DNA of 64,000 nt from positions 310,001 to 374,000 of the forward strand of contig RPFO01000264.1 in assembly GCA_009746045.1 (NCBI GenBank), written 5' to 3'. The translations under genes and the position numbers were made by a program. The notes beneath the pieces are model-generated. The model had not been told where the DNA came from and did no database searches. It worked only from the letters and a program-made list of their open reading frames with translations. The stretch's first letter is position 1. Each line of letters opens with the position of its first letter. Shown here piece after piece: positions 8,608 to 53,816 of the stretch. The DNA is from Mesostigma viride (lineage: Eukaryota; Streptophyta; Mesostigmatophyceae; Mesostigmatales; Mesostigmataceae).

Positions 8608-8640
8608 TTGACTCCTCAAGAACCTACCAGGTGCGTTAAC

Positions 8641-9031
8641 ATGAGCCACGCGACGTCCTTTCCCTTCCTTCTCATTCGACTAGTAATAATAGTTTAGCGA
8701 AGTCTTACGTTGTTTTACCCCTCAATGGGCAGATTTTCTTATCTGGGCCGATGCTAGGAAGTTCGTTCAGTCACGGGCTTAACGTCTCCAAATATAAGAA
8801 GTTATGTCTTTGAAGAAGCTCAGACCTACCTCTTAAAGCATAGTGAATCAGATTTGGGACTCCATTCTCGTCCTTCTCCTCATACTCGCCCTGCAGTAGA
8901 TAGTCTTGTTTGTTACACCACCTCCATCCCTCCTTCGTCTCCCCCTAACGGCCTGCATCCTCATCTAGCTTAGATACGCCTCTCACCTTAGAGTTCGGTT
9001 CCCTATCCATTACTGTTGCTAAAAAGATTGA
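8641..9031 (+). pseudogene. HBD (viroplasmin-like) ORF, copy A, broken
   Basis: Equivalent to the intact 134-residue ORF at 44487-44891 (-). The start ATGAGCCA is kept, but there are several small deletions (for example in the KYYVVITPQW segment and a lost G in the AAAAAGGATTGA end). No continuous frame remains. It sits directly upstream of gag as in the other copies. Confidence 0.75.
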
Positions 9032-9157
9032 TGTAAATTGTTTCCTTCTTTTAGGACCACTAAAAGCTTTTTCTTTTCTTTCCTTGCCTTAAATTAGGCC
9101 TTGTCCTTTTTCCTTGATTGCGTTCAGTTAGATTCCTAATCATTTACTTAATTAAAA

Positions 9158-10863
9158 ATGGATCTAGTGGGTGGTAATATGTCGCCTATACCTACAACAT
9201 CCTACTATGAATAATAATAATAATAACAACAACATAACAACACTCGTGGTAACCGACGGGACTCACTTGAAACGGTGCACCATCTCACTCCTCAAGGTAA
9301 CCTTGCGTACCTCACCTCCTTCTCCTGTTACTGGTGGTGGTCGCCGTCGTCCCTCACTTACCCCACCTACCTTTGAACAACGTGTCAAGATTAGTGATGA
9401 ACCCTCTTTGCTGAACCAGGCCCCTGCCCCTCCTGCAACCTTGGCTCAACCCCCAGCAGGTCCTCACTAACTAACAATGTTTTAGGCCTCCTTCCCACCC
9501 TGTGCCTTCCATGCCTGCTCTTAACACGGGTCGTGCCTCTGCCCCTGTCGGTCCTTCTGGGCGCCCTAGTGCAGTTCCCTTTTACCCACCTGCTTCCTGG
9601 TCCTACCCTGAGACGGCCTATGAGGCAGCCCAGGTCCCTACCCGTGTGGCTGATTTAGAAGTTAATAGTGATTTCAGCACCATGCCTCTAGATGACAGAA
9701 ATTATGATCATTTGCCTATTCCTCTCTTCGTGAGCAATATACTGTCCCCTTCTCTATGGGCACCAGCCTGAAACGGTGGCCCCTTCTAGACCCCTACCCA
9801 AGACTTTCCTCTTCCTTCCTTCTATCCCGCTTATGTAGCAGTGGAAGATAGTGGCCCTATGGGAAAACTGACTCTTCTAACCCCCTAAGCCCCCTGCTCT
9901 TCCCCTCTTTGCTAACCTTCCCAAGCTGGATGTCAAGTCTACCCCTCAACAGTTTTTCACCTTTATTATGTTGCTTACCCAGAACACAGAGTCGTGGCAG
10001 AATCATAATAGATGGCGTCTTCTGATGCTGTATTAGTTCCTCACTATCTTACAACCTGTATTACTCCTGAGCTTGCTAACCTCATTCAGTGTGAGTCTTT
10101 GGCCTCTCATGCCTACCCTAACTCTGTAGCAGAATTGTTTAAGCGTTTAGAGAACCATTTAGTCCCTCCTGATTCAGATTGGCAGGATAGATTAGCCTTT
10201 GGTACCTTGCAGCAGGGTACTAAATCATTTAAGGAGTATATGAAGAGTTTGATGCTCAGATGTACGAATTAGGGATTTGTCGGGTGCAGAAGTACGTGCT
10301 CGCTTCCTCCAAGGCCTCAGTAGACCCTTTATTACGTGAAGTCAAGCGCCAGTTCTCTGCCTACCGTTTTACTGATCTGCCCCTCAAGCATGTGCGCCAG
10401 CATCTCTTGCGTGTAGCAGATTTCTTCACCACCCTTCTTCCTACCCGTTCCCGTATTAATAATATTATCCTTACCCCTGAGGAGGAGAACTCCTATGTAG
10501 AAGAATTAGATATCTGCGTTACTGACCTTTCAGCTCTTGATGTCTTCATATCACATGCTATCATTGTAAGGAAGTAGGTCATCTTAAACGTGAGTGCCCC
10601 AAGTTCCTTTCGGGTGCTCCCCCTCATCCCGACGCTCGCCCTCCTCGTACCCCTCAGCGTGCTCCTATTCGTCCTACTTCAGGACGCATTCCTCAGCTAC
10701 CCCTAGTAGGCTGAATGCTGTGCAGCAGGACCCCCAGGGTTCCCCTATGATAATCAGGCTCCCGCACCCTCTTCGCTCCCTCGTGACCCTCCAGCAGTGG
10801 CTTTTTCGCCAGGGTCTTCTTCGGGGTTAGTTCTATGGATTTGGGGGGGAGGGGGAACAGTAG
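9158..10863 (+). pseudogene. gag, chromovirus copy A, multiply frameshifted
   Basis: Aligns along its length to the intact gag at 42635-44362 (-): start M-D-L-V-G-G-N, Asn repeat, Pro-rich N-terminal half, capsid-like central part (FKRLENHLVPP, FGTLQQGTKSFKEYM) and a zinc-knuckle region near 10550-10620. At least six small indels break it into fragments. The G run before the terminal GAACAGTAG has seven G here against eight in copy B, so even the gag-pol overlap is altered. Confidence 0.85.
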
Positions 10864-13800
10864 GCCTGTCAGCCGGGGGTAACCTGGACAGGTCCTTAGA
10901 TAGTACCCCAGATAAAAATTTTTGCCTGCCTGTTTTATAACCTCTGTAGGAGCTGAATCTTCCCTACCACTACGTGTCCGTCCTCTTATGTTCTTGAATG
11001 GTGGCTTAACCGTCCCCTACCGTTGTAGACCCTTTCTTGCATGCTGATGAACTTTTGAATGTCTCTGTGTTGGTAGATAGCGGTGCGGCTAGCTCCTTTG
11101 TGAGCGAAGCCCTAGTTAGGCGTTTAGGACTAGTCCCTACCCCTCACACCAAACCCGTACTGTTCATTATGCTGATGGTCGCACCAGTCATTCCCCGGGT
11201 ACGGTGTCCCTTTGGTTATACAAGGACGTACTGTCAACCTGACGGCCACTATTAGGCCCTATCACTACCGCTGATGTATTACTAGGATTAGATTGGCACC
11301 AGGATAATAAGATTACTATTAATTATGATACCATGGTCATTTGGTTTCCAGATAGCTCTTACTGGGTACCGGAACGTCATTATAGATTGGAAAATTTATC
11401 CTTGGTAGATATTACTCCTCCTACACCTGTTGATCCTCCTGTAAGACCTATACCTGAAGTATTAATGTCCAATGATGAGTTGCGTTCTGAACTAAAGGAA
11501 TATGGATATTTATTATGTATGTTCCTTCAGTTAGAAGTACAGGAGATACCTATCACTAATAATAGTGTGGATATAGATATAAACACAGTGGATACAATAG
11601 GAGTGGGATTTACTGAAAATGAAATAGTAAGATACATGGCTGTGATAGATTCCTCAAAAGTTTTTGAAGAAAAGACTCCTTCTTATCCTCCTCCACGTTC
11701 TGTTTTACACCGTGTAGTTATCAAGGACGGTGCAGTTCCTACGCACTCTCCGATGTATAGAATGGGCCCTACCGAGTTAAAGGAACTAAAACAGATTTTA
11801 GTGTCACTATTAGAAGCAGGATTGATAGAGCCTAGTAACTCTCCCTACTCAGCTGGTGTCCTGTTAGTTCCTAAGCCAAATGGCAAGATTCGCCTATAGT
11901 TACTGATTATAGGAAGTTGAATGATATTACTGTGAAGTCTAAATACCCTCTACCTCGTATTGATGACATATTTAATAAGGTTAAAGGTTCCACTTGTTTC
12001 ACAGTACTGGATTGTGCGGATGGTTTTTGGCAGTTGCGGATAGCTCCTGAGGATTGCCATAAAACCGCCTTTGCTACCCCTTTTGGTCATTACCAGTTTA
12101 GAGTAGCGGCTATGGGACTCTGTAACTCGCCTGCCTCTTTTCAAATGTTAATGAATGAAGTGCTTAGACCTGTTATGGGAAATTCTCACCTTCCTCAGGT
12201 GTCCTCTGATTTAAAGGATCCTTCCTTCTCCTCTGTTTCTTTATCTGAGCATGACCGTTCTTGTGCTCAAGCTTACTTAGATGATATTCTTATTTACTCT
12301 CCTGATTTTGAAACGCACCTACGTGATTTAAAGAAAGTATTAGAAATAATGGCTGAAAATTCTTTGTGGGCGCGCCGTGCTAAAGTCGTTCGGGTAGGAG
12401 TGTCCCATTTTTAGGGCACGTTCTGTCAGATGCCGGGGTCGCTACCGACCCGGATAAAACTAAGTCAATTCAGGAATGGCCTACTCCTACCGACGTTAAA
12501 GGTGTACGTAGTTTCCTAGGAATTGCTTCTTACTATAGGCGCTTTATCCCGCGTTTCGCAACTATAGCAGCCCCTATTAATCATTTATTAAAGAAGATAT
12601 TCCCTTTGTTTGGAGTAGTGAATGTCAGTCGGCTTTTCAGTCTAAAATCCCTACTCCTTTCCCCTCCTGTACTCATCCTACCGGATACTACTAAACCCTT
12701 TGTGGTAGCTACAGATGCTAGTAAGTAGCTATAGGGGTGTCCTTCTCCAGGATCAGGGTCAGGGCTTACAGCCAATTGAGTATATCTCTAGGACAATGCT
12801 CCCTGCGGAGCGTAACTATCCCGTACACCAGCAGGAACTCTTAGCGGTGGTGTATTGTTGCCACGTGGCAGCACTTTCTTAAAGGTGCTCAATTTGATGT
12901 CTGCCTGAATGAACCCTGTGAGCTAGATCCTTATTAGGTTAGTTATCCAAACGGATCATCGTCCCCTTACCCATCTTCTCTCCCAACCCAACCTTACCCC
13001 TCGCAAGCGCGCTGGATGGAATTTTTAGCACAGTTTTCCCTTTTAAACTTCAGTATGTAAGGGTGTAGATAACATAGTACCAGATGCACTCTCTCGTCGT
13101 GCAGACTATTCCTTCTTCGAGGACCTTGATGTTCTCAATACTACTCTAGTTCCTACTACTATGGGTGTAACCCTTATGGTGAACTACCTGATGTGAATCC
13201 TATGCCTACCTCTTTCATACAGCTGTTCGCATGCCTGATCTCCTTTCTCACGTAGGACTCTCTCTCCCGTGTGAGGCCCTTCCCGTGGCCTCGGTGGGGG
13301 GGAGGGGAAAAATAAAATTTCTATACCGCTTAGCCATATAGCGACTAGGTCAGGAAAGTCTTATGAAAACGTCCCTCTAGGACCTCCCCTTCTCTTTGGC
13401 AAGGCGGTAGGAGATCTCTTTAAACCTGTTCTGGATACTTCTGTAGCGATGCCTACCTCTGATCTTGAACGTTATTAGTAGATTTACGGCCACTGAGCCG
13501 GAAGCATTAGCTGCCATTGCTGCACATCCCCAACAATTAGGCAAGCACCCTTGTAAATTTGTAGGTGGGTTTTTATATGTGCAAGATAGCAGATTCTCCC
13601 CCTCAATGGCGCCTGTATGTCCCTCCTATCTGTCGCTCCTCCTTGCTCTTTGAGTTGCATGACTTAGCTGCTCATCAGGGTGGTAAACGGGTACGGGACC
13701 TAGTAGCCCGCTCTTATTACTGGCCTTCCCTTTATAAGGATGTAGATGAGTATGTTAGAACTTGTCAATCTTGCCAGGAATGAAACCCAATAACGTAGGA

Positions 13801-14925
13801 CAGATAGCAGAACCTAGGACCTTGCCTGACCCCATCATGCCGTGGGATTCTATCATGATGGATTTTGTAGGACCTTTTAGAAAGAATGATAGGGGCAATG
13901 CCCAGATCCTTGTGTTCATAGATCGTTTTACTCGTATGTGCCATCTCGTGCCGTGTCCTTTAGAACTCACGCACGTGATTGCGCACGCCTATACCTCAAT
14001 AATGTATACAGATATCATGGATTGAGTAGGCAGTTTATTAGTGATAAGGATAATTATTTACCTCAGATTTTTGGCAGCAGTTTTTCGCTGCCATCGGTAC
14101 CAAGGTTACCTACGGTACTGCCTACCACTCCTCCTCCTCTCATTTAGTAGAGCGTCTTAATAGGGTAGTAGAAGAAGCGCTTAGGCACTATGTTAATGGC
14201 TCGGGAAGTGATTGGGAGGATTATTTATGTTTGGTAGAGTTCTCCCTCAACAATTGTCCCCAAGCTGCGCATGGATATACGCCCTTCTTCCTAGATACTG
14301 GTAGACAGCCTCTTACCCTACCTCTCTCTTAGCTAGTCCTCTACGGGACAAGGATGATGTGTCCCGAGATACTGTAGAAGGTGTACAGTCCTTACTAGAT
14401 AGAATGAAAACTGCTCATGACCACGCGATCTCAGGGTACCAAAAAGCTCAGGTCTAAGTACCTTGCTAGGTTGCGTGCCTCCTTAGATAGAGAGCACCTG
14501 AGATAGAAATAGGAGATCTAGTATTAGTAGAAGGCCCCCGTGCTGGCCGTTTTGCTCATAAGTTTGAAGCAGAACTTGAAGGTCAAACTTAGGCCCGCCT
14601 TCTTAGGACCCTTCCATGTGTTGTCTAGAGTAGGAAATTTCTTATATAAAGTCGATATCCCTACCTCTTGGCAGCACATTCTAACACCTTCCATAGAGCC
14701 ACTAAACTGTACCACCCTAGTACGTTCGCTGGTAGGAGTTAGCGCCTGCCCCTTTAGAGCATAACCCTGACACTGGGGAAGTAGAAGACGAAGTAGAAAG
14801 CATCGTGGCCCATAGAGATATCAAAAAGGGCCGCGGTACCCAGCGTCAGTATAAAGTGAAGTGGATGTATGCTCGTAGTGAAGTAGATAAGGTTGGTATA
14901 CGGAGAGTGAGCTAGATGGGTGTAG
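10864..14925 (+). pseudogene. pol, chromovirus copy A (PR-RT-RH-IN-chromodomain), frameshifted
   Basis: In order: retropepsin (VDSGAASSFV, about 11037-11290), RT with YRMGPTELKELKQIL and AYLDDILIYS (11700-12400), RNase H (FVVATDAS, ~12700), zinc-binding and core integrase (CQSCQE ~13780; MPWDSIMMDFVGPF ~13840; HLVERLN ~14140), and a chromodomain-like end (ESIVAHRDIKKGRG ~14800). Several frames are needed. Catalytic residues are all still readable. Copy N2 at 34866-38949 is the better-preserved equivalent. Confidence 0.88.
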
Positions 14926-15017
14926 TCGCCTGCTGCAGGAATATAAAACCCTGCACAAGCTCTAGTTGTAGACCTTCTCCTCTCTTATGTTATGTCTGCT
15001 GTCGACGGGTGGTTGGT

Positions 15018-15041
15018 TGTCCCCTCCCCTCCGCAGCCGTC
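15018..15041 (+). promoter_or_regulatory. Candidate 3' splice site before ORF X
   Basis: A pyrimidine-rich tract ending CCCTCCGCAG (15036) sits five bases before the ORF X start codon. The same tract and position are kept in the minus-strand copy N (about 34763-34785), although surrounding bases differ. Placement just upstream of a downstream retroelement gene suggests expression from a spliced subgenomic RNA. This is inferred from sequence alone. Confidence 0.45.
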
Positions 15042-17315
15042 ATGTCAGAGCCTACCCCTCCGGCTGAGAGCCCGCTGCCGTCCCTGCCCCTACCGGACCC
15101 TGAGCTGTACTTCGAGGCCCTTCCGGGCCGCTGGGTGTCACGGTCAGTTTTCCCGGGTGGCATCGTGCAACCGGCCCTCCAGGCCCAACATGCGAGTTTA
15201 GTCAGGGCTGCTCTCTTCACGGTCACGTGGTACGGTCCTCCCCTGATGAACCGCACCAGCTTGTTTTGCACGGGTTCGACGATGCCGGCACTGTTTGTTG
15301 GATGTGGCTCCCGCTGTCCAGCCTTGGGACAGATAGCTGCGTTCTCCAGTGCCCCCGGGTTTTTTCCTACCTTTCTACCCCTGTGGGCCGCTCCTGCCTA
15401 CGGGATGTGTTCCCCTGGCTTCCGGCCGAGGGTGATGCGGAAGTAGATGAGAACCCCTGCGACCTTCTACGGGCAGTAGTAGAGTTCATGGAGATAGCAG
15501 ACCAGACAGCGGGCGTAGGATTGGGCGACCCTACTCCTACGGACGCGCCAGTAGAGGCACAGTATACTCCTGAGTATTCGGCCTCCCCTGCGGCGTCCTC
15601 CTCTTCAGTGTCGGCGCCTTCCCCTGTCCCGTCTTCACCGAGGTCGGTCCTGTGCGCATCGGTGGAGCCTACCCCTTTGGGCTCTGGTCGTGAGCCTGAT
15701 CCTCTTTCGGCGACAGTTTCTGCGATGCAGGCGCAGATCCAGTCCCTGACGGCGGCCTTCGGGGCCTTCATGGCGGCCCAGGCGCACGCTCCAGCCACGC
15801 CAGGTGGGGTGTCTGCCGCAGCTGTGCCCCCTTCCCCTTCGGTCGCCTCGACGTCTACGGGTCCGTCTGTGCCGCGCGAGCCCTCGGCGGCTGCGGTTCC
15901 CTCTGTTGCTGCGGCTCCTACGCCTTCGGCTACCGCTGCGCCTGCTACTGACGTACCTGCGCCCGTCGCCGTCGCGTCCGAGCCGCCCACCACGTCAGCG
16001 CCGCCCTCGCGGGGTTTCTTCAGCGACCCGGGCGGTCTTCCCAGGCTTTGGGAGGGCGGTCCTCCGCAGAGGATCCCGGTGCCTGACTGGAGCTTAGACG
16101 GTAACCAGTCGTATGCCGGATTGCCTGCCCCCACGGGCCCTATTTTCAACATGTGGCCTGGTGGTGCTCCGCCCCCAGAGACCGGAGCGCCAGCTGCGGA
16201 GGCGGGTCCGTCGCGACCCCCTGCGGCATCGGGTCCGACGCGGCCCCCTGTTGTACCGGCGCCGTCTGCGTCTGTGCCGGTTCCTACCCCTTCGTCGGCC
16301 CCTCCCTTCGGCCCCGCAGTCTTTGGCTGCGGTTGTTCGGTCCAGTGGCTCTGACCCTCGCGCCACCCGCGCTGCCGATTCCCTTCGGAGTTGTCAGAGG
16401 GCGATCGGGATCGGGCCCCTTCTGTGGTGCATGCGACTCCGGAGTCGCGCGACACGCCTGTCTTGGGTACGGTATGTCTGCGCTCGCCTGCCGCCAGTGT
16501 GACCTGCCGCGCACCTCCGCCGAGCTTGCCATTTCGCCCATGTCCTACGGGTTCTCCCAGGTGTGTCGGGCGCCGCGGGACCGTGGCCTACCAGTTGAGA
16601 CTGATCGGCCTCCTTTCGATATGGTTTTTAGCTGATCCGGTGTTCCAGGTGAGATCCTGGTTCGGCGCGTCCTGTATCGCTGGGCTAGGCGCCACAATGA
16701 CTTGGACACCTACGGCGGTTCCAGTGGGCTTACCCTCCGCCTATGGGCATTATGGCCTCAGATGCCCTTACGGAGTTTCCTGCGGTGCCGGGTGCCACGT
16801 ACAGCACGGTCCTTAACCCATCCTAGAGTGGGATGCCCGTCGTCCAGCGCCCATCCGGGCCAGGGTTTGGACTCTCGGGGTCATCCTCCTCCCCAGGCTA
16901 GCGACTACCTCGAGACGTTCGGGTCGCGACAGTGTGCCCGTCGATGGCGCTCCCGTGAGATTCGGCATATCCGGTTGTGGCCGTCCAACGTGGAGCCCCT
17001 GGTAGATCTGTTTTTCCCGACGGGTATGCGCCCTCGGATCCGGTACCATCGCCTGCTCCTGCGGGCTCTCTGTTGATCGCGGTAGAGCCTTTCCTACGCC
17101 TCTTTGCCTGTGGTTCCTGGACTGGGCCCGGGGCCAGGTCGTTCTTACGCAGCATAGGTATTAGGGCCTTCCTGGGTCTTTTTCCTGACGGCGTGTGGGC
17201 CGATGTTTTCCTCACTGTAGATAGGCACGACAATGCTGAGGATGTGTCTCACTACCAGGCGTACCTGGATGTCCTGCTGGCCTCCCGTGGTACTTACCAG
17301 ACGGATGGCCATTAG
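15042..17315 (+). pseudogene. ORF X, extra gene 3' of pol, copy A, frameshifted
   Basis: An unrecognised gene after pol. Readable parts are an N-terminal segment (PDPELYFEALPGRWVSR), an acidic/helical stretch (CDLLRAVVEFMEIAD), a predicted heptad-like region (ATVSAMQAQIQSLTAAF), ~250 residues rich in Pro/Ala/Ser/Thr, and a C-terminal part with Cys-rich YGMSALACRQCDLPR and a Trp/Phe-rich end (LFFPTGMRPRIRYHRLLLRA; final TYQTDGH). At least three frame changes occur. No signal peptide or clear membrane segment is visible, so a classical envelope protein is not supported. The same gene is in copy N at 32447-34757. Confidence 0.6.
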
Positions 17316-17686
17316 ATAGAGGGCCTTAGGCCCGACCTGAGGGTGTTGTCCCTCCGGTATATAGAGTCGCCCTCACGTTCTGGCCAGTTGACTGGTCGTT
17401 CTTGGTCCTTGGTACTGATTTGTTTACTCTGTGTGTCCTGCCCAGTGCCGTTCCCCCCGGCAAGGACTTTGTTCCAGGCAGTTAGGGGAACCTACCACCA
17501 GGCTTGGTGCTGGCTAACCCTACACCTCCCGGCGTGGTGGTGGAGACCGAGTTAATACGTTGGTGCCTTGTATCTTGGATGGTCTGCCGACTGTGTTGGT
17601 GTGTGCTGGGTGCATTAGGTTTCCTACCCCTTGTTTTCCTCCCTGTGCGTAGGGAGAGGGCTCCCTACCTTTGTGGGGGGGGGAGG
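17316..17686 (+). other. Chromovirus 3' untranslated region with polypurine tract
   Basis: Non-coding between the ORF X stop and the LTR, matched in reverse by 32078-32446 of copy N. It ends in a purine-rich G run and GGAGG directly before TGTTACG, the expected primer site for plus-strand synthesis. Confidence 0.75.
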
Positions 17687-17726
17687 TGTTACGTCGCGTA
17701 ACAATTCGTTGTAGTTACGGACGTAA
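17687..17726 (+). repeat. Chromovirus LTR, first 40 bp (copy A 3' / copy B 5')
   Basis: Begins TGTTACGTCGCGTAAC right after the polypurine tract. It stops at ACGTAA, where the TIR-1 transposon is inserted, and resumes at 26183. The complete LTR elsewhere in the window is 543-547 bp and runs TGTTACG...CGTAACA. Confidence 0.9.
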
Positions 17727-21692: not shown

Positions 21693-21886
21693 TCTTCGCT
21701 TGCTACAGATTTAACCACCGGAAAATAGACAAAGATTGCACGCAACCTTCCAATAATGCCGGCTGCGATTTAACCTTCGTTTGCTGGGCGCTGCACGCTG
21801 CAATGTATCGAGTCAATTTGCGCGGGATCTGGAACTTTGAATATATGTTTAGGCAAGAGGCTGCGGCGTCATTTGGCTGCAGCTGG

Positions 21887-22612
21887 GTAACTACTTGCGT
21901 CTTGCGGCCAAGATACGCAGCCTGCCTCGAGAGGGCTGCGTATCTTTGCCGCAGCCTGCCTCACCAGCTAAAAACCTTGCGGCCAAGATACGCAGCCTGC
22001 CTCCTCGAGGATATCCTCGAGGAGGCAGGCTGCGTATCTTGGCCGCAAGGTTTTTAGCTGGTGAGGCAGGCTGCGGCAAAGATACGCAGCCTGCCTCGGC
22101 AGCTGGGGAAGTAACTACTTGCGTCTTGCGGCCAAGATACGCAGCCTGCATCACCAGCTAAAAACCTTGCGGCCAAGATACGCAGCCTGCCTCCTCGAGG
22201 ATATCCTCGAGGAGGCAGGCTGCGTATCTTGGCCGCAGCCTGCCTCACCAGCTAAAAACCTTGCGGCCAAGATACGCAGCCTGCCTCCTCGAGGATATCC
22301 TCGAGGAGGCAGGCTGCGTATCTTGGCCGCAAGGTTTTTAGCTGGTGATGCAGGCTGCGTATCTTGGCCGCAAGACGCAAGTAGTTACTTCCCCAGCTGC
22401 CGAGGCAGGCTGCGTATCTTTGCCGCAGCCTGCCTCACCAGCTAAAAACCTTGCGGCCAAGATACGCAGCCTGCCTCCTCGAGGATATCCTCGAGGAGGC
22501 AGGCTGCGTATCTTGGCCGCAAGGTTTTTAGCTGGTGAGGCAGGCTGCGGCAAAGATACGCAGCCCTCTCGAGGCAGGCTGCGTATCTTGGCCGCAAGAC
22601 GCAAGTAATTAC
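21887..22612. repeat. ~726-bp nested palindrome
   Basis: Two ~350-bp arms are inverted copies centred on 22249/22250 with a 26-bp spacer (22237-22262). Four smaller palindromes centred on CTCGAGGATATCCTCGAG lie at 22012, 22202, 22296 and 22486, exactly symmetric about the main centre. The unit GGCCAAGATACGCAGCCTGC recurs through both arms in both orientations. Rare variants (CATCACC opposite GGTGATG) are matched on both sides, so the arms are near-identical. The region lies between the two divergent genes of TIR-1. Confidence 0.93.
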
Positions 22613-23096
22613 TTCCCCAGCTGCCGAAGCAGGCTGCGTACATTTTGGCGGCAAGTTCCCCAGCTGTTCGCTGCTTAGGCAAGTTGTTGCAACGACTTCG
22701 CAACGTGACTGCCAACAGGGGCGCCTGCGTTCAAGTCTTCAGTGCGTGCCCTGGCGGCACATCATTATTACGTAAATAGCCGTGAAGCTTTCGGTACCTT
22801 AGTAGCAGTTTATAGTTGGATTTATGGCAGACAAGGCTGACAGGATATTATTTTGTGGTTTAACAAGTGACGCCGAAATGAATAGGCACGGAGCCGAAAA
22901 ATAGCCGACGTAGTTGATTTGGAGACGAGTTGTTAGCATTGATGACAAAAATGGGATTAGGTTTACACAGGACAGTAATAGGCGCTGAGCTGCTTACTCT
23001 TATGAGGTCCGGCATCCATTCAGCGCCGGGGGAGTCCTGCTTTTGGTTTAGGTTGAAACTTTTATAAATGTTAGAGATAAAGGCTAGGATAGCAAA
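22613..23096 (+). other. Upstream region of TIR-1 gene 2
   Basis: No supported ORF. It follows the palindrome and leads to the ATG at 23097. Together with 21693-21886 it forms the shared intergenic region of the two divergent genes, so promoters are expected here, but no TATA or other element is certain. Confidence 0.45.
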
Positions 23097-31530: not shown

Positions 31531-32077
31531 TGTTACGCCTCGGGTTTCTACCGCTACCTCTACCTCTACCTGGCCTGATGCTACCTAAACTAGTCAGGCC
31601 GCCTCTAGTTAAACCCCTAGCGAAAGACGAACGAGACGATCCAGATCTCAGTGCATTAACGTAAGTATTACTATAATACGCCATAAGCCATTTACACAAC
31701 CCGTTTACTCCAGGAATAGTCTGAGGAAGGAAACACAACTACACTGCCGTGACCCAAGCCTATATGTGTTAATTCATTTAACACACGCCGAGTGCACACA
31801 CGAGGGGTAGAACGTGCATAAATGGTCACCAACGGTCCAACACGCTCGGGCCGACCTGGCCCTCGCCTACAGATGCACGCTGGTCCACTACATTCTACCA
31901 AAGGATCAGGACCACTAATAAAGTACGCGGCGCGGCGCCCAAAGGCACCCAATGTACCACAGTACTGTTACGAGGACAATAGTGTCCCAGTAGGAACTAC
32001 ACGTAAACCTAGGGACAACCGAGGCAAAAGACCTAATTTACGTCCGTAACTACAACGAATTGTTACGCGACGTAACA
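31531..32077 (-). repeat. 3' LTR of provirus N (547 bp)
   Basis: On the minus strand TGTTACGTCGCG...CGAGGCGTAACA. Near-identical to 53274-53816; the visible difference is a 4-base insertion near 31720. High identity of the pair indicates recent insertion. Confidence 0.95.
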
Positions 32078-32446: not shown

Positions 32447-34757
32447 CTAATGGCCATCCGTCTGGTAAGTGCCACGGGAGGCCAGCAGGACATCCAGGTA
32501 CGCCTGGTAGTGAGCCACATCCTCAGCATTGTCGTGCCTATCTACAGTGAGGAAAACATCGGCCCACACGCCGTCAGGAAAAAGACCCAGGAAGGCCCAG
32601 TAATACCTATGCTGCGTAAGAACGACCTGGCCCCGGGCCCAGTCCAGGAAACCACAGGCAAAGAGGCGTAGGAAAGGCTCTACCGCGATCAGGCAGAGAG
32701 CCCGCAGGAGCAGGCGATGGTACCGGATCCGAGGGCGCATACCCGTCGGGAAAAACAGATCTACCAGGGGCTCCACGTTGGACGGCCACAACCGGATGTG
32801 CCGAATCTCACGGAGCGCCACCGACGGGCACACTGTCGCGACCCGAACGTCTCGAGGTAGTCGCTAGCCCGGGGAGGAGGATGCCACGGAGTCCAGACCC
32901 TGGCCCGGGATGGGCGCTGGACGACGGGCATCCCACTCTAGGATGGGCTGAAGGACCGTGCTGTACGTGGCACCCGGCACCGCAGGAAACTCTACCGTAA
33001 GGGCATCTGAGGCCATAATGCCCAGAGGCGGAGGGTAAGCCCACTGGAACCCGCCGTAGGTGTCCAAGTCATTGTGGCGCCTAGCCCAGCGATACAGGAC
33101 GCGCCGAACCAGGATCTCACCCTGGAACACCGGATCAGCTAAAATAACCATATCGAAAGGAGGCCGATCAGTCTCAACTGGTAGGCCACGGTCCCGCGGC
33201 GCCCGACACACCTGGGAGAACCCGTAGGACATGGGCGAAATGGCAAGCTCGGCGGAGGCGCGCGGCAGGTCACACTGGCGGCAGGCGAGCGCAGACATAC
33301 CGTACCCAAAGACAGGCGTGTCGCGCGACTCCGGAGTCGCATGCACCACAGAAGGGGCCCGATCCCGATCGCCCTCTGACAACTCCCGAAGGGAATCAGC
33401 AGCGCGGGTGGCGCGAGGATCAGAGCCACTGGACCGAACAACCGCAGCCAAAGACCGCGGGGCCGAAGGGACAGGGGCCGAAGAAGGGGTAGGAACCGGC
33501 ACAGACGCAGACGGCGCCGGTACAACAGGGGGCCGCGTCGGACCCGATGCCGCAGGGGGTCGCGACGGCCCGCCTCCGCAGCTGGCGCGCCGGTCTCTGG
33601 GGCGGAGCACCACCAGGCCACATGTTGAAAACAGGGCCCGTGGGGACAGGCAATCCGGCATACGACTGGTTACCGTCTAAGCTCCAGTCAGGCACCGGAT
33701 CCTCTGCGGAGGACCGCCCTCCCAAAGCCTGGGAAGACCGCCCGGGTCGCTGAAGAAACCCCGCGAGGGCGGCGCTGACGCGGTGGGCGGCCCGGACGCG
33801 ACGGCGACGGGCGCGGCCGCTGGGACGGAGGACTCGCGCCGAGGCGCAGGTAAGTCAGTAGCAGGCGCAGGGTAGCCGAAGGCGTAGGAGCCGCAGCAAC
33901 AGAGGAAACCGCAGCCACCGAGGGCTCGCGCGGCACAGACGGACCCGTAGACGTCGAGGCGACCGAAGGGGAAGGGGGCACAGATACAGCAGACACCCCA
34001 CCTGGCGTGGCTGGAGCGTGCGCCTGGGCCGCCATGAAGGCCCCGAAGGCCGCCGTCAGGGACTGGATCTGCGCCTGCATCGCAGAAACTGTCGCCGAAA
34101 GAGGATCAGGCTCACGACCAGAGCCCAAAGGGGTAGGCTCCACCGATGCGCGCCGGACCGACCTGGTGAAGACGGGACAGGGGAAGGAGCCGACACTGAA
34201 GAGGAGGACGCCGCAGGGGAGGCCGAATACTCAGGAGTGTACTGTGCCTCGACTGGCGCGTCCGTAGGAGTAGGGTCGCCCAATCCTACGCCCGCTGTCT
34301 GGTCTGCGATCTCCATGAACTCTACTGCCCGTAGAAGGTCGCAGGGGTTCTCATCTACTTCTGCATCACCCTCGCCCGGAAGCCAGGGGAACACATCCCG
34401 TAGGCAGGAGCGGCCCACAGGGGTAGAAAGGTAGGAAAACACCCGGGGGCACTGAAGAACCGCAGCTATCTGTCCCAAGGCTGGACAGCGGGAGCCACAT
34501 CCTACAGACAATGCCCGGCATCGTCGAACCCATGCAAAACAAGCTGGTGCGGTTCATCAGGGGAGGGCCGTACCACGTGACCCCAAAGAGAGCAGCCCTG
34601 ACTAAACCGCATGTTGGGCCTGGAGGGCGGCTGCACGATGCCACCCGGAACTGGACCGTGACACCCAGCGGCCCGGAAGGGCCTCGAAGTAGAGCTCAGG
34701 GTCCGGTGGCGGAGGGGAAGGTGGCCGGCTCTCCGACGGAGGGGTAGGATCAGCCAT
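32447..34757 (-). pseudogene. ORF X, extra gene 3' of pol, copy N, frameshifted
   Basis: Starts MADPTPPSESRPPS at 34757, just after the conserved CCCCTCCGCAG tract, and ends TYQTDGH-stop. The central-C-terminal part is open for 265 codons (33661-32864). It contains YGMSALACRQCDLPR, PMSYGFSQVCRAPRDRG, RWARRHNDLDTYGGFQWAY and LTVEFPAVPGATYSTVLQP. The last ~125 residues (REIRHIRLWPSNVEPLVDLF...) are in another frame. Compared with copy A, breaks fall at different places, so an ancestral gene of roughly 750 codons is implied. No match to gag, envelope or known retroelement accessory domains is evident to me; a Cys-x2-Cys pair and a coiled-coil-like stretch are the only motifs. Confidence 0.6.
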
Positions 34758-34865
34758 GATGGCTGCGGAGGGGAGGGGACAACCAACCACCCCGACAGCA
34801 GAATACATAAGGAGGGAAGGTTGCCAACTAGAGCTGTGTAGGGTTTTTATTCCTGCAGCAGGCGA

Positions 34866-37800
34866 CTACAACCATCTACTCACTCTCCGTGTACCATACT
34901 TATCTACCTCACTACGAGCATACATCCACTTCACTTTATACTGACGCTGGGTACCGCGGCCCTTTTTGATATCTCTATGGGCCACGATGCTCTCTACTTC
35001 GTCTTCTACTTCCCCAGTGTCAGGGTTATGCTCTAAAGGGGCAGGCGCTAGCTCTCTACCAGCGAACGTGCTAGGGTGGTACAGTTTCAGCTGGCTTCTA
35101 TGGAAGGTGTTAGAATGTGTCTGCCAAGAGGTAGGGATATCGACTTTATATAAGAAATTTCCTACTCTAGACAACACACGGAAGGGTCCTAAGAAGGCGG
35201 GCCTAAGTTTGACCTTAAGTTCTGCTTCAAACTTATGAGCAAAACGGCCAACACGGGGGCCTTCTACTAATACTAGATCTCCTATTCTATCTCAGGTGCT
35301 CTTCTATCTAAGGAGGCACGCAACCTAGCAAGGTACTTAGACTGAGCTTTTTGGTACCCTGAGATCGCGTGGTCATGAGCAGTTTTCATTCTATCTAGCA
35401 AGGACTGTACACCTTCTACAGTATCCGGGACACATCATCCTTGTCCCGTAGAGGACTAGCTAAGAGAGAGGTAGGGGTAAGAGGCTGTCTACCAGTATCT
35501 AGGAAGAAGGGCGTATATCCATGCGCAGCCTGGGGGCAATTGTTGAGGGAGAACTCTACCAAACATAAATAATCCTCCCAATCACTTCCCGAGCCATTAA
35601 CATAGTGCCTAAGCGCTTCTTCCACTACCCTATTAAGACGCTCTACTAAATGAGAGGAGGAGGAGTGGTAGGCAGTACCGTAGGTAACCTTGGTACCGAT
35701 GGCAGCGAAAAACTGCTGCCAAAAATCTGAGGTAAATAACTTATCTTTATCACTAATAAACTGCCTACTCAAACCATGATATCTGTATACATTATTAAGG
35801 TATAGGCGTGCGCAATCACGTGCTGTGAGTTCTAAAGGACACGGCACGAGATGGCACATACGAGTAAAACGATCTATGAACACAAGGATCTGGGCATTGC
35901 CCCTATCATTCTTTCTAAAAGGTCCTACAAAATCCATCATGATAGAATCCCACGGCATGATGGGATCAGGCAAGGTCCTAGGTTCTGCTATCTGTCCTAC
36001 GTTATTGGGTTTCATCTCCTGGCAAGATTGACAAGTTCTAACATACTCATCTACATCCTTAAAAGGGAAGGCCAGTAATAAGAGCGGGCTACTAGGTCCC
36101 GTACCCGTTTACCACCCTGATGAGCAGCTAAGTCATGCAACTCAAAGAGCAAGGAGGAGCGACAGATAGGAGGGACATACAGGCGCCATTGAGGGGGAGA
36201 ATCTGCTATCTGCACATATAAAAACCCACCTACAAATTTACAAGGGTGCTTGCCTAATTGTTGGGGATGTGCAGCAATGGCAGCTAATGCTTCCGGCTCA
36301 GTGGCCGTAAATCTACTAATAAGGCGTTCAAGATCAGAGGTAGGCATCGCTACAGAGGTATCCAGAACAGGTTTAAAGAGATCTCCTACCGCCTTGCCAA
36401 AGAGAAGGGGAGGTCCTAGAGGGACTATGTTTTCATAAGACTTTCCTGACCTAGTCGCTATATGGCTAAGCGGTATAGAAATTTTATTTTTCCCCTCCCC
36501 CCCCACCGAGGCCACGGGAAGGGCCTCACACGGGAGAGAGAGTCCTACGTGAGAAAGGAGATCAGGCATGCGAACAGCTGTATGAAAGAGGTAGGCATAG
36601 GATTCATCATCAGGTAGTTCACCATAAGGGGTTACACCCATAGTAGTAGGAACTAGAGTAGTATTGAGAACATCAAGGTCCTCGAAAAAGGAGTAATCTG
36701 CACGACGAGAGAGTGCATCTGGTACTATGTTATCTACACCCTTAACATACTGAAGTTTAAAAGGGGAAAACTGTGCTAAAAATTCCATCCAGCGCGCTTG
36801 CCGAGGGGTAAGGTTGGGTTGGGAGAGAAGATGGGTAAGGGGACGGTGATCCGTTTGGATAACTAATCTATAAGGATCTAGCTCACAGGGTTCATTCAGG
36901 CAGACATCAAATTGAGCACCTTTAAGAAAGTGCTGCCACGCGTGGCAACAATACACCACCGCTAAGAGTTCCTGCTGGTGTACGGGATAGTTACGCTCCG
37001 CAGGGAGCATTGTCCTAGAGATATACTCAATTGGCTGTAAGCCCTGACCCTGATCCTGGAGAAGGACGCCCCCTATAGCTACCTTACTAGCATCTGTAGC
37101 TACCACAAAGGGTTTAGTAGTATCCGGTAGGATGAGTACAGGAGGGGAAAGGAGTAGGGATTTTAGACACTGAAAAGCCGACTGACATTCACTACTCCAA
37201 ACAAAGGGGATATCCTTCTTTAATAAATGATTAATAGGGGCTGCTATAGTTGCGAAACGCGGGATAAAACGCCTATAGTAAGAAGCAATTCCTAAAACTA
37301 CGTACACCTTTAACGTCGGTAGGGTAGGCCATTCCTGAATTGACTTAGTTTTATCCGGGTCGGTAGCGACCCCGGCATCTGACAGAACGTGCCCTAAAAA
37401 TGGGACACTCCTACCCGAACGAACTTTAGCACGGCGCGCCCACAAAGAATTTTCAGCCATTATTTCTAATACTTTCTTTAAATCACGTAGGTGCGTTTCA
37501 AAATCAGGAGAGTAAATAAGAATATCATCTAAGTAAGCTTGAGCACAAGAACGGTCATGCTCAGATAAAGAAACAGAGGAGAAGGAAGGATCCTTTAAAT
37601 CAGAGGACACCTGAGGAAGGTGAGAATTTCCCATAACAGGTCTAAGCACTTCATTCATTAACATTTGAAAAGAGGCAGGCGAGTTACAGAGTCCCATAGC
37701 CGCTACTCTAAACTGGTAATGACCAAAAGGGGTAGCAAAGGCGGTTTTATGGCAATCCTCAGGAGCTATCCGCAACTGCCAAAAACCATCCGCACAATCC

Positions 37801-38949
37801 AGTACTGTGAAACAAGTGGAACCTTTAACCTTATTAAATATATCATCAATACGAGGTAGAGGGTATTTAGACTTCACAGTAATATCATTCAACTTCCTAT
37901 AATCAGTAACTAGGCGAAACTTGCCATTTGGCTTAGGAACTAACAGGACACCAGCTGAGTAGGGAGAGTTACTAGGCTCTATCAATCCTGCTTCTAATAG
38001 TGACACTAAAATCTGTTTTAGTTCCTTTAACTCGGTAGGGCCCATTCTATACATCGGAGAGTGCGTAGGAACTGCACCGTCCTTGATAACTACACGGTGT
38101 AAAACAGAACGAGGAGGAGGATAAGAAGGAGTCTTTTCTTCAAAAACTTTTGAGGAATCTATCACAGCCATGTATCTTACTATTTCATTTTCAGTAAATC
38201 CCACTCCTATTGTATCCACTGTGTTTATATCTATATCCACACTATTATTAGTGATAGGTATCTCCTGTACTTCTAACTGAAGGAACATACATAATAAATA
38301 TCCATATTCCTTTATTCAGAACGCAACTCATCATTGGACATTAATACTTCAGGTATAGGTCTTACAGGAGGATCAACAGGTGTAGGAGGAGTAATATCTA
38401 CCAAGGATAAATTTTCCAATCTATAATGACGTTCCGGTACCCAGTAAGAGCTATCTGGAAACCAAATGACCATGGTATCATAATTAATAGTAATCTTATT
38501 ATCCTGGTGCCAATCTAATCCTAGTAATACATCAGCGGTAGTGATAGGGCCTATAGTGGCCGTCAGGTTGACAGTACGTCCTTGTATGACCAGGGGAAGG
38601 GACACCGTACCCGGGGAATGACTGGTGCGACCATCAGCATAATGAACAGTGACAGGTTTGGTGTGAGGGGTAGGGACTAGTCCTAAACGCCTAACTAGGG
38701 CCTCGCTCACAAAGGAGCTAGCCGCACCGCTATCTACCAACACAGAGACATTCAAGAGTTCATCAGCATGCAAGAAAGGGTCTACAACAGTATGGGGAAC
38801 GGTTAAACCACCATTCAAGAACATAAGAGGACGCACACGTAGTGGTAGGGAAGATTCAGCTCCTACAGAGGTTATAAAAACAGGCAGGCAAAAATTTTTA
38901 TCTGGGGTACTATCTAAGGACCTGTCCAGGTTACCCCCGGCTGACAGGC
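34866..38949 (-). pseudogene. pol, chromovirus copy N2 (PR-RT-RH-IN-chromodomain), nearly intact
   Basis: Retropepsin (LVDSGAASSFVSEA; LLGLDWH) at 38312-38836. The 745-codon frame 36051-38288 has RT (VTDYRKLNDITVKSKYPLPR, AYLDDILIYSPDFE), RNase H (VVATDASKVAIGGVLLQ, YPVHQQELLAVVY) and the integrase zinc finger start. Core integrase is at 35416-36015 (MPWDSIMMDFVGPFRKND, DKDKLF, SSHLVERLN). The chromodomain-like end is at 34866-35177 (DEVESIVAHRDIKKGRG, YKVKWMYARSE). Only short frame breaks (for example a 2-nt loss at ~36060) separate the frames. The terminal chromodomain places it among chromoviruses and suggests chromatin-targeted integration. Confidence 0.9.
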
Positions 38950-40667: not shown

Positions 40668-40785
40668 TTTAATTAAGTAAATGATTAGGAATCTAACTGA
40701 AAGCAACAAGGAAAAGGACAAGGCCTAATTTAAGGCAAGGAAAGAAAAGAAAAGCTTTTAATGTCCAAAAGAAAAACAATTTAAA

Positions 40786-41188: not shown

Positions 41189-41239
41189 GTTAACGCACCT
41201 GGTAGGTCTTGAGTAGTCAAATAAGGAGAACGAGGAGAA

Positions 41240-41290
41240 GGCGACTTATCTCGGGTGTCTGAAACAGAAGAAGAAGGATCCTTTACAGAG
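41240..41290 (-). other. Junction: RT sequence fused to leader of second internal unit
   Basis: Reading the minus strand, RT sequence (GTGTCCTCTGTAAAGGATCC) passes into leader sequence (TTTCAGACACCCGAGATAAG) within a few bases. CTGTTTC/GGTTTC is shared by both partners, a microhomology. The RT frame runs through into leader, giving an artificial tail (DTRDKSPSPRSPYL). Confidence 0.8.
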
Positions 41291-42634: not shown

Positions 42635-44362
42635 CTACTGTTCCCCCTCCCCCCCCAAATCCATAGGAACTAACCCCGAAGCAGACCCTGGCGAAAAAGC
42701 CACTGCTGGAGGGTCACGAGGGATCGAAGAGGGTGCGGGAGCCTGATTATCATAGGGGAACCCTGGGGGTCCTGTCTGCACAGCATTCAGCCTACTAGGG
42801 GTAGCTGAGGGAATGCGTCCTGAAGTGGGACGAATAGGAGCACGCTGAGGGGTACGAGGAGGGCGAGCGTCGGGATGAGGGGGAGCACCCGAAAGGAACT
42901 TGGGGCACTCACGTTTAAGATGACCTACTTCCTTACAATGATAGCATGTGATATGAGAGACATCAAGAGCTGAACGATCAGCAACGCAGATATCTAATTC
43001 TTCTACATAGGAGTTCTCCTCCTCAGGGGTAAGGATAATATTATTAATACGGGAACGGGTAGGGAGAGAAGGAGTGGTGAAGAAATCTGCTACCCGTAAG
43101 AGATGCTGGCGCACATGCTTGAGGGGCAGATCAGTAAAACGGTAGGCAGAGAACTGGCGCTTGACTTCACGTAATAAGGGTCTACTGAGGCCTTGGAGGA
43201 AGCGAGCACGTACTTCTGCACCCGACAAATCCCTAATTCGTACCATCTGGGCATCAAACTCTTTCATATACTCCTTAAATGATTTAGTACCCTGCTGCAA
43301 GGTACCAAAGGCTAATCTATCCTGCCAATCTGCATCAGGAGGGACTAAATGGTTCTCTAAACGCTTAAACAATTCTGCTACAGAGTTAGGGTAGGCATGA
43401 AAGGCCAAGGACTCACACTGGATGAGGTTAGCAAGCTCAGGAGTAATGCAGGTAGTAAGATAGTGAGGGACTAGTACAGCATCAGAGAGACGCCATCTAT
43501 TATGATTCTGCCACGACTCTGTGTTCTGGGTAAGCAACATAATAAAAGTGAAAAACTGTTGAGGGGTAGACTTGACATCCAGCTTGGGAAGGTTAGCAAA
43601 GAGGGGAAGAGCAGGAGGCTTAGGGGGATTAGAAGAGTCAGTTTTTCCCATAGGGCCACTATCTTCCACTGCTACATAAGCGGGATAGAAGGAAGGAAGA
43701 GGAAAGGTTTTGGGTAGGGGTCTAGAAGGGGCCACTGTTTCAGGCTGGTGCCCATAGGAGAAGGGGACAGTATATTGCTCACGAAGAGAGGAGTAGGCAA
43801 AATGATCATAATTTCTATCATCTAGGGGCATGGTGCTGAAATCACTATTAACTTCTAAATCAGCCACACGGGTAGGGACCTGAGCAGCCTCATAGGCCGT
43901 ATCAGGGTAGGACCAGGAAGCAGGTGGGTAAAAGGGAACTGCACTAGGGCGCCCAGAAGGGCCGACAGAGGCAGAGGTACGACCCGTGTTGAAAGCAGGC
44001 ATGGAAGGCACAGGGTGGGAAGGAGGCCTAGAAGCATTGTTAGTTAGTGAGGACCTGCTGGAGGGTTGAGCCAAGGTTGCAGGAGGGGCAGGGGCCTGGT
44101 TCACAGCAAAAGATGGTTCATCACTAAATCTGACATGTTGTTCAAAGGTAGGTGGGGTAAGTGAGGGACGACGGCGACCACCAGTAACAGGAGAAGGAGG
44201 TGAGGTACGCAGATTACCTTGAGGAGTGAGATGGTGCACCGTTTCAAGTGAGTCCCGTCGTTGACCACGAGTGTTGTTATTGTTGTTAGTATTATTATTA
44301 TTATTATTCATAGCAGTAGCGTTGGTAGGTATAGGCGACATATCTCCACCCACTGGATCCAT
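42635..44362 (-). CDS. gag: gag polyprotein, chromovirus copy N1, intact
   Basis: The best gag in the window: 575 codons without interruption from MDPVGGDMSP to MDLGGEGEQ. N-terminal Asn repeat and Pro/Ser-rich ~200 residues, then a capsid-like helical part (FFTFIMLLTQNTESWQNHN, LIQCESLAFHAYPNSVAELF, FGTLQQGTKSFKEYMKEFDA, ARFLQGLSRPLLREVKRQF), then one CCHC knuckle CYHCKEVGHLKREC, then a Pro-rich tail. It forms the particle and binds genomic RNA. I place the start at 44362 because this Met is conserved in all copies; the frame is open further upstream. The eight-G run before the stop is the proposed -1 frameshift site. Confidence 0.9.
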   Translation of the reverse strand: MDPVGGDMSPIPTNATAMNNNNNNTNNNNNTRGQRRDSLETVHHLTPQGNLRTSPPSPVTGGRRRPSLTPPTFEQHVRFSDEPSFAVNQAPAPPATLAQPSSRSSLTNNASRPPSHPVPSMPAFNTGRTSASVGPSGRPSAVPFYPPASWSYPDTAYEAAQVPTRVADLEVNSDFSTMPLDDRNYDHFAYSSLREQYTVPFSYGHQPETVAPSRPLPKTFPLPSFYPAYVAVEDSGPMGKTDSSNPPKPPALPLFANLPKLDVKSTPQQFFTFIMLLTQNTESWQNHNRWRLSDAVLVPHYLTTCITPELANLIQCESLAFHAYPNSVAELFKRLENHLVPPDADWQDRLAFGTLQQGTKSFKEYMKEFDAQMVRIRDLSGAEVRARFLQGLSRPLLREVKRQFSAYRFTDLPLKHVRQHLLRVADFFTTPSLPTRSRINNIILTPEEENSYVEELDICVADRSALDVSHITCYHCKEVGHLKRECPKFLSGAPPHPDARPPRTPQRAPIRPTSGRIPSATPSRLNAVQTGPPGFPYDNQAPAPSSIPRDPPAVAFSPGSASGLVPMDLGGEGEQ

Positions 44363-44486
44363 CTTTAATTGAGTAAAGGAATAGGAATCTGACTGAAAGC
44401 AACAAGGAAAAAGGACAAGGCCTAATTTAAGGCAAGGAAAGAAAAGAAAAGCTTTTAATGTCCTACACAAAGAAAAACAATTTAAA

Positions 44487-44891
44487 TCAATCCTTTTTAG
44501 CAACAGTAATGGATAGGGAACCGAACTCTAAGGTGAGAGGCGTATCTAAGCTAGATGAGGATACAGCCCGTTTAGGGGGAGACGAAGGAGGAGATGGAGG
44601 TGGTGTGACGAAAACAAGACTATCTACAGCAGGACGAGCATGAGGAGAAGGACGAGAATGGAGACCCAAATCTGATTCACTATGATTTAAGAGGTAGGTC
44701 TGAGCTTCTTCAAAGGACATAAACTTCTTATATTTGGAGACATTATAAGCACGCGACTGAACGAACTTCCTAGCATCGGCCCACGATAAGAAAATAGATG
44801 CCCATTGAGGAGTAATAACTACGTAATATTTCGCTAAACTATTATTACTAGTCGAATGAGAAGGAGCAGGAAAAGGACGTCGCTGGCTCAT
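44487..44891 (-). CDS. HBD: standalone viroplasmin/RNase H1-type hybrid-binding protein, copy N1
   Basis: Intact 134-residue ORF upstream of gag. Residues ~20-70 (LAKYYVVITPQWASIFLSW, ADARKFVQS, KYKKFMSFEEAQTYLLNHSE) match the N-terminal domain of RNase H1, also found in caulimovirus inclusion-body protein (Cauli_VI family), which binds RNA/DNA hybrids or dsRNA. The remainder is Pro/Ser-rich with LTLEFGSLSITVAKKD at the end. The same ORF stands in the same place in copies A, B, N2 and C. A role in reverse transcription intermediates or translation is inference from the family. Confidence 0.8.
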   Translation of the reverse strand: MSQRRPFPAPSHSTSNNSLAKYYVVITPQWASIFLSWADARKFVQSRAYNVSKYKKFMSFEEAQTYLLNHSESDLGLHSRPSPHARPAVDSLVFVTPPPSPPSSPPKRAVSSSSLDTPLTLEFGSLSITVAKKD

Positions 44892-45266
44892 GTTAACGCA
44901 CCTGGTAGGTCTTGAGGAGTCAAATAAGGAGAACGAGGAGAAGGCGACTTATCTCGGGTGTCTGAAACCGAACCAGATTGACGACGCACGCAGTGACGAA
45001 GTTTCCAGCGCCAGGTGGTCGTAAGTATCCGGTTTCAAGAATTCTGCGTCTGGCGATGGGTCGTCTAAATACAACGCAGGCAAGAATGCAGAAAAAGTGT
45101 AATCTACGAGACGCTAGTCGTCTCTCTAACGTAGAACCAAAACCATCACCTATCTACGACAGTAGGCAACATGTCTCAGGAAAACAAGACGAGGGAAAGG
45201 AGCTATCTATAAAAGGATTTTCCGCTTCGAGCAGGTCTATCTTCTAGGCGAGGCGTGTCCCGAATC

Positions 45267-53127: not shown

Positions 53128-53691
53128 CTACCCCCCCAGCTTGCAGGCGACCCGCCCATTACCTGTCAAGTAGGTGTCGTCTTCATTTTCCCGGACGCGG
53201 AAGGGTTGATTCAATGACGTATGTTGCAGGGGATCGTCGTCTCGCTCTCTACCTAAAATCCCTCCGAGTCCATTGTTACGCCTCGGGTTTCTACCGCTAC
53301 CTCTACCTCTACCTGGCCTGATGCTACCTAAACTAGTCAGGCCGCCTCTAGTTAAACCCCTAGCGAAAGACGAACGAGACGATCCAGATCTCAGTGCATT
53401 AACGTAAGTATTACTATAATACGCCATAAGCCATTTACACAACCCGTTTACTCCAGGAATAGAGGAAGGAAACACAACTACACTGCCGTGACCCAAGCCT
53501 ATATGTGTTAATTCATTTAACACACGCCGAGTGCACACACGAGGGGTAGAACGTGCATAAATGGTCACCAACGGTCCAACACGCTCGGGCCGACCTGGCC
53601 CTCGCCTACAGATGCACGCTGGTCCACTACATTCTACCAAAGGATCAGGACCACTAATAAAGTACGCGGCGCGGCGCCCAAAGGCACCCAA
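53128..53691 (-). CDS. Leader ORF crossing 5' LTR and primer site, provirus N
   Basis: A 187-codon frame starts inside the LTR, runs through the LTR end (SIRPGRGRGSGRNPRRN, an RG-rich stretch) and the tRNA primer site, and stops in the leader (DDTYLTGNGRVACKLGG). Copy C has the same frame and stop (58889-59113), with a 3-base indel between them. Whether it is translated is unknown; most base differences between N and C change the amino acid, so constraint is not shown. Its first Met and LTR start of transcription are uncertain, so the real product may be shorter. Confidence 0.4.
   Translation of the reverse strand: MGAFGRRAAYFISGPDPLVECSGPACICRRGPGRPERVGPLVTIYARSTPRVCTRRVLNELTHIGLGHGSVVVFPSSIPGVNGLCKWLMAYYSNTYVNALRSGSSRSSFARGLTRGGLTSLGSIRPGRGRGSGRNPRRNNGLGGILGRERDDDPLQHTSLNQPFRVRENEDDTYLTGNGRVACKLGG
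53261..53272 (-). promoter_or_regulatory. Candidate tRNA primer-binding site, provirus N
   Basis: TGGACTCGGAGG on the minus strand, one base after the LTR end CGTAACA. It begins with TGG, complementary to the CCA end of a tRNA. Copy C has TGGTTCCGGAGG in the same place. The tRNA species is not identified. Confidence 0.6.
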
Positions 53692-53816
53692 TGTACCACA
53701 GTACTGTTACGAGGACAATAGTGTCCCAGTAGGAACTACACGTAAACCTAGGGACAACCGAGGCAAAAGACCTAATTTACGTCCGTAACTACAACGAATT
53801 GTTACGCGACGTAACA
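53274..53816 (-). repeat. 5' LTR of provirus N (543 bp)
   Basis: TGTTACG...CGTAACA on the minus strand; ends abut the GCACC duplication at 53817. Near-identical to 31531-32077. Confidence 0.95.

Follow-up and report, generated by a model that had tools for sequence, protein, structure and literature searches.

An open reading frame downstream of pol, ORF X, carried by a high-copy Ty3/gypsy chromovirus of, apparently, Mesostigma viride, is almost certainly a real gene under selection: several copies keep frames of 762-774 codons and dN/dS values lie well below 1, which is more than chance would leave. The reading that we favor, at a probability of roughly 0.45, is that X is a functional accessory protein translated from a spliced mRNA, intracellular and non-envelope, most likely nuclear, and acting on the unspliced RNA of its own element. 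Two copies of this element, A on the forward strand and N on the reverse strand, lie in the window (the whole 64,000-nucleotide stretch of DNA that was analyzed).

Both window copies had been regarded as full-length in the first-pass annotation, and for A this does not hold; its N-like part spans 8608-17726 only, with no adjoining 5' LTR, and closes with a purine-rich stretch and the first ~40 nt of the 3' LTR (17675..17726, recognized from the sequence and from A/N similarity). Copy N has an LTR at each end (3' LTR at 31531..32077 and 5' LTR at 53274..53816, reverse strand, 99.3% identical to each other), plus a nested insertion and a 3.7-kb tandem duplication. The pol of N (36051..38288, reverse strand) contains reverse transcriptase, RNase H and the start of integrase (Pfam RVT_1, 1.9e-28; RT_RNaseH_2, 9.3e-34; Integrase_H2C2, 4.9e-6), while its gag (42635..44503, reverse strand; Retrotrans_gag, 4e-7; zf-CCHC, 1.5e-6) lies inside the duplicated part, the two units of which occupy 37570-44972 and are 97% identical. 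The nested insertion sits in the leader of N (45267-53114), is bounded by 616-bp terminal repeats of 99% identity and holds an open frame with a weak, below cut-off match to RVT_2 (copia-type). Elsewhere in the window are an ORF of 765 codons at 23097-25394, mostly internal repeats and without a Pfam match, and a near-perfect long inverted repeat with a short spacer at 21879-22624.

The hallmarks of a chromovirus are divided between copies, with the reverse transcriptase, RNase H and integrase parts seen in N and the C-terminal chromodomain in copy L035, the pol end of which matches Pfam Chromo (E 1.1e-8) and SH3_Tf2-1 (5.7e-15); this match confirms that X lies downstream of the chromodomain, as had been proposed. 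In A, the pol stop codon that follows the chromodomain (14963..14965, forward strand) is 76 nt ahead of the X ATG, and the same 76-nt gap recurs in 12 of the 13 copies for which it was obtained (N gave no row). LTRs flank N, and X, in sense orientation and longer than 250 codons, lies between pol and the 3' LTR. An upstream ATG would extend the frame to 816 codons, and is the start used by the database gene model P0007; this extension overlaps the pol chromodomain in another frame, and is also disfavored by the join in copy L078 (described below), which sits just before the inner ATG. The larger frame is probably not the true form of X. In L015, the upstream extension contains one lysine, and in L070 different DNA abuts the conserved tract upstream of X (before position 346), replacing the pol end.

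The gene of about 750 codons first described after the chromodomain keeps its position, its sense orientation and its coordinates (ATG at 15042 in A and 34757 in N, stop codons ending at 17315 and 32447), and loses its openness: X is frame-broken both in A (15042..17315, forward strand) and in N (32447..34757, reverse strand), where repeated frame jumps leave longest stop-free runs of 416 and 270 codons, respectively, and it is in other copies that the open counterparts are found. Compared with its nearest other copy, A differs by 18 substitutions, 17 deletions and 1 insertion, and N by 48 substitutions, 11 deletions and 1 insertion. The same comparison, drawing on 47 copies with bounded ends, gave 1-16 substitutions and 0-3 indels for 12 of 14 other copies, the remaining two being L021 (5 substitutions, 11 indels) and L022 (18 and 6). 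Decay and leftover long-read errors are both compatible with the small-deletion excess in A and N; taken with the PacBio basis of the M. viride genome assembly (PMC6947507), this excess suggests that the frame breaks may in part be assembly errors.

Examined copy by copy, the frame proves to be open elsewhere in the genome. The first set comprised 40 copies (A, N and 38 further genomic copies with flanks, all located via X itself), of which 11 have a frame of more than 780 codons from their own first ATG (789-816 codons); the seven of these 11 that were measured from the ATG of the first-pass annotation encode 762-774 residues. A protein search of the 440-Mb assembly matched all 150 scored candidates (the best 150 of 7120), and ten long-frame copies were chosen from it, seven of which are open from the ATG through to the usual stop position (L052 has a different end, L047 and L053 a different start). 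All 150 scored candidates likewise matched in a second protein search (of 3662 candidates), and one of the eight copies chosen from it, L073, is open throughout; these 18 diverged copies were selected for long frames and are biased toward open ones. Eight entries in the Mesostigma protein set (P0001-P0008) are fragments of this retrotransposon gene entered as gene models.

Selection on X was gauged by pairwise dN/dS (NG86) among nine representative copies. The mean is 0.195 over the whole frame (pairs 0.163-0.28), 0.170 for the N-terminal region (0.104-0.679), 0.296 for the center (0.226-0.515) and 0.065 for the C-terminal region (0.037-0.169), regional means of 0.065-0.30, far from the values near 1 that the first-pass annotation had named as refuting. 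Four of the nine set against four diverged copies gave 0.200 overall, 0.114 N-terminal, 0.295 center and 0.107 C-terminal. Comparison values are lower still, at 0.034 for a gag stretch (two pairs) and 0.014 for an integrase-chromodomain stretch (one pair). X is clearly under purifying selection, which is laxer than that on gag and pol, its C-terminal third included. That X merely rides along as a passenger, or was captured from the host and is useless to the element, is an idea that draws on the failure to find relatives, and is scarcely credible against dN/dS values well below 1 among copies and the presence of X in diverged subfamilies.

Open copies encode 762-778 residues, in which the composition originally described (a Pro/Ala/Ser-rich center, a C-x2-C pair reading CRQC, an aromatic-rich end) can be read directly. 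A conserved N-terminal region with several cysteines is followed by a long Pro/Ala/Ser-rich linker, within which a helix-like segment and one well-preserved block stand out, and then by a C-terminal region of ~300 residues that is under strong constraint and bears Arg-rich patches (in L015, around residues 649 and 679). Lysine is almost lacking: the count is zero in 18 of 21 copies and 1, 2 and 2 in the other three, with 53-61 arginines, where base composition by codon position would predict about 6 lysines; the lysine-poor copies include L009, L015, L051 and L073. The gag of N has 18 lysines, and a pol stretch 36.

Protein, Pfam, PHROGs, NCBIfam and PDB searches did not link X to any known family of accessory or envelope proteins. 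Pfam, PHROGs and NCBIfam returned nothing for X; two pieces of X found no match in the PDB, and an X profile drew two PDB rows (E 0.23 and 0.85) that we regard as chance matches. A set of 5.8 billion proteins was searched three times by a method that requires shared five-residue words (the second search scored the best 7994 word-sharing candidates); the matches numbered 6, 2 and 2, all of them Mesostigma gene models. Searches of plasmids at the DNA level and of phages turned up no relatives, and none of 54 pattern matches in viral contigs was confirmed. Two AlphaFold2 models have mean pLDDT values of 28 and 31, and neither a nuclear-import nor an RNA-binding domain was recognized in the protein. 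The initial suggestion of an accessory protein of algal chromoviruses is best divided: X having been found only in Mesostigma, the generality goes beyond the evidence, while its sequence supports the narrower statement that X is, in all likelihood, a non-envelope accessory protein.

Several of these features could also suit a cytoplasmic particle or assembly protein, either a second structural protein or a helper of Gag. The C-terminal region is long and conserved, the linker has a helix-like segment, and Pro-rich linkers such as that of X are common in Gag-type proteins. Against this, neither BLASTP nor profile comparison revealed any similarity of X to the gag of its element (the profile had 10 closely alike rows, which makes the test weak), a result on which the gag-duplicate version of the idea is set aside; in its general form we regard a particle role as unlikely, if still a serious contender.

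The pyrimidine tract ending in CAG that had been reported a few bases before the ATG is present in both window copies, five bases 5' of the ATG, and with its candidate acceptor occupies 15010..15036 in A (forward strand, AG at 15035-15036) and 34763..34789 in N (reverse strand, AG at 34764-34763). Of 50 copies, 49 have the hexamer GCAGCC ahead of the X ATG; the exception, L047, has other DNA at this place. Conservation of the tract exceeds that of the early part of the gap: L050 and L051 differ at 14 of 48 early-gap positions versus 1 of 31 in the tract (Fisher p 0.0035), and L015 and N at 22 of 54 versus 1 of 31 (p 9.5e-5). Two of four further pairs agree (p 0.0065 and 0.023), the contrast being weak in L050/L073 (p 0.067) and absent in L015/L075 (p 0.68); the pairs are non-independent and represent about three lineages. 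Variation within the tract occurs in L073, L075 and L055.

A donor-like site, ACCAG/GTGCGT (slash at the putative cut), is found in the leader of A (8626..8636, forward strand, GT at 8631-8632) and, by motif match, in that of N (44896..44906, reverse strand). Leaders were scanned with a simple weight table (maximum about 8.7) in two joined sequences, C998 (L061 plus L066) and C580 (L063 plus L065 reversed). At a threshold of 5 no site passed; at a lower threshold CAG/GTGCGT scores 4.9 in both, which makes it no more than a fair donor, and a second candidate within gag, AAG/GTAATT, scores 4.9 in C998 and 3.2 in C580. The CAG/GTGCGT motif is present at seven distinct places, comprising every examined stretch with that part of the leader, and is absent from four stretches lacking it (the 5' stretches L057, L059, L060, L062, L067 and L069, which have no leader, and L068, which has the gag start only, were left out).

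Two small ORFs accompany this region. ORF b lies in the leader ahead of gag (44490..44891 in N, reverse strand), its ATG beginning 8 nt past the donor GT, and encodes a Cauli_VI / RNase H1 N-terminal-like domain (28.5 bits against a cut-off of 21 for Pfam Cauli_VI, E 1.8e-6), the two E-values obtained for the domain being 1.8e-6 and 8.1e-8. ORF b also occurs at 26912 (forward), 41188 (reverse) and 59482 (forward) and in C998 and C580, with a dN/dS of 0.30 (one pair). ORF a, RGG-rich and 99-100 codons long, starts within the LTR and extends into the leader (from 1842 of L061 into L066; at 573 in C580); its dN/dS is 0.40 (one pair).

Splicing from the donor-like site to the candidate acceptor would create the junction ACCAG/CCRTCATG, which was predicted before the whole genome was searched for it with up to one mismatch. 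Five matches were returned (reversed-pattern controls gave 0 and 2), of which one is exact and is the sole match within the element, in copy L078; the DNA around the remaining four has no similarity to the element. A second junction pattern recovered the L078 place and one unrelated place, with controls of 0 and 0. The order in L078 is the LTR minus its first bases, the leader up to the donor, and then X from the acceptor onward, with gag and pol absent in between. Its X portion is shortened, contains one stop and gives way to inverted pieces; those at 3148-3426 derive from X and the leader and are perhaps a product of reverse transcription or rearrangement.

The simplest account of L078 would be a spliced RNA copied back into the genome. 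A deletion arising by chance at a 3-nt repeat could leave the same join, which would then say nothing about splicing: donor and acceptor both terminate in CAG, such that deletion there yields an identical product, and L078 is a single case across two pattern searches. We consider this quite improbable, given that the breakpoints were forecast before the search and both fall exactly at the two conserved sites. Tract conservation, the conserved donor-like site and the one genomic copy with the predicted junction together lend weight to the early suggestion of a splice acceptor, and X is probably translated from a spliced mRNA, as judged at the level of sequence.

If X is expressed without splicing, ribosomes would have to reinitiate after pol, or X would be translated from a polycistronic RNA aided by ORF b. 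The constant 76-nt gap (12 of 13 copies) would suit the former and the Cauli_VI domain of ORF b the latter, this domain being common to caulimovirus transactivators; since neither route explains the conserved pyrimidine tract and CAG, nor the L078 junction, we hold this to be as improbable as the deletion.

Under the spliced-message reading, full-length RNA would serve for the leader ORFs, gag and pol, and spliced RNA for X: the leader donor ACCAG/GTGCGT, just before ORF b, would be joined to the acceptor CCGCAG/CC five bases 5' of the X ATG, and ORF b, gag and pol would be lost with the intron. Where only some of an element's RNA is spliced, the remainder has still to be exported in unspliced form, and X may act in the nucleus on this unspliced RNA, in its export or regulation. 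Such a nuclear role is proposed because of an analogy with CERV of the Cer1 element, rather than homology, and a function specifically in RNA export or regulation stays tentative, at less than even odds. The near-lack of lysine may further let X evade host ubiquitin marking, and a protein of ~770 residues that has 58 arginines but lacks lysine makes a direct, testable ubiquitin prediction. Broadest of all, X may represent a lineage-specific class of green-plant LTR-retrotransposon regulators, lysine-free, Rev- or CERV-like and made from a spliced mRNA, which would export or protect unspliced RNA and evade ubiquitin-based destruction alongside a leader ORF that bears an RNA-binding domain of the caulimovirus type; we regard this wider proposal as speculative and, as a whole, unlikely.

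The position downstream of pol is that of env in retroviruses, and this place, together with the putative spliced message, is what an envelope-like entry protein would share with them. The first-pass annotation judged that X does not look like an envelope, and we concur: by hydropathy no signal peptide is evident, the best 19-residue window starting within the first 60 residues reaching 0.84-0.94 in three copies (hydropathy alone), those three copies hold one N-glycosylation sequon, and sequence searches returned no envelope match. The accompanying remark that there is no obvious membrane segment is correct for the N-terminus, which lacks a signal-like stretch, and needs amending for the interior, where a single hydrophobic stretch at ~687-710 reaches 1.9 on the Kyte-Doolittle scale; this stretch, the one feature of the protein that might favor entry, holds E, P and R. 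With both a signal-like start and envelope matches absent, we rank an envelope function as very improbable.

Our preferred reading, of X as a spliced-mRNA accessory protein, can be set beside several known systems, each taken here as described in the available portions of its source. Among the open-licence papers listed in our literature searches, none deals with ORF X. Additional ORFs occur in most LTR-retrotransposon lineages according to a 2025 review (PMC12786077), which lowers the novelty of X. SIRE, Athila and other plant LTR retrotransposons are known to carry sense extra ORFs after pol (eORF-3'F / aORF-3S; PMC6317226, PMC7264820); X resembles these ORFs in place, strand and length (>250 codons), and they too are mostly without known domains. 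They differ in belonging to SIRE and to non-chromovirus OTA elements and in being highly divergent, and one large survey of plant LTR retrotransposons doubts that such highly divergent extra ORFs are functional (PMC6317226), whereas the element carrying X is a chromovirus and X is well conserved among its copies in the host. The available portions of PMC7264820 and PMC6317226 yielded no chromovirus extra ORF of the size of X. What X adds is that purifying selection maintains such an ORF, here in a high-copy element of a streptophyte alga that branched early, and that a concrete mechanism of expression is proposed for it, which can be checked on RNA reads.

SM1-Galahad of Selaginella is, like the present element, a chromodomain element with extra ORFs downstream of pol, yet its two ORFs after Gag-Pol are each ~310 bp and one of them contains the chromodomain, whereas X is ~2.3 kb and follows the chromodomain (PMC3350952). 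The ORF3 types of bdelloid LTR retrotransposons likewise place non-envelope genes at the env position; these encode enzyme domains (GDSL esterase, DEDDy exonuclease), whereas no domain was found in X (PMC5408684). Spliced RNAs are described for barley Bagy2 (PMC7264820) and for Ogre and EVADE (PMC12786077), so that splicing, as proposed for X, has precedent among green-plant LTR retrotransposons; the spliced product of Bagy2 is termed env-like, whereas X lacks envelope features.

A possible functional parallel is CERV, encoded by the Gypsy/Ty3-related element Cer1 of C. elegans (PMC10309623). A novel protein, CERV has a Cys-rich loop and is predicted to have a zipper, is required for the export of unspliced Cer1 RNA and, much as is proposed for X, is the product of a spliced mRNA from a region once proposed to encode an envelope (PMC10309623). 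The likeness is one of description only; CERV shares part of Gag and is assembled from five exons, whereas X would be a single ORF after one putative intron. If X does turn out to act in RNA export or regulation, factors of this kind would have originated separately in green plants and in animals.
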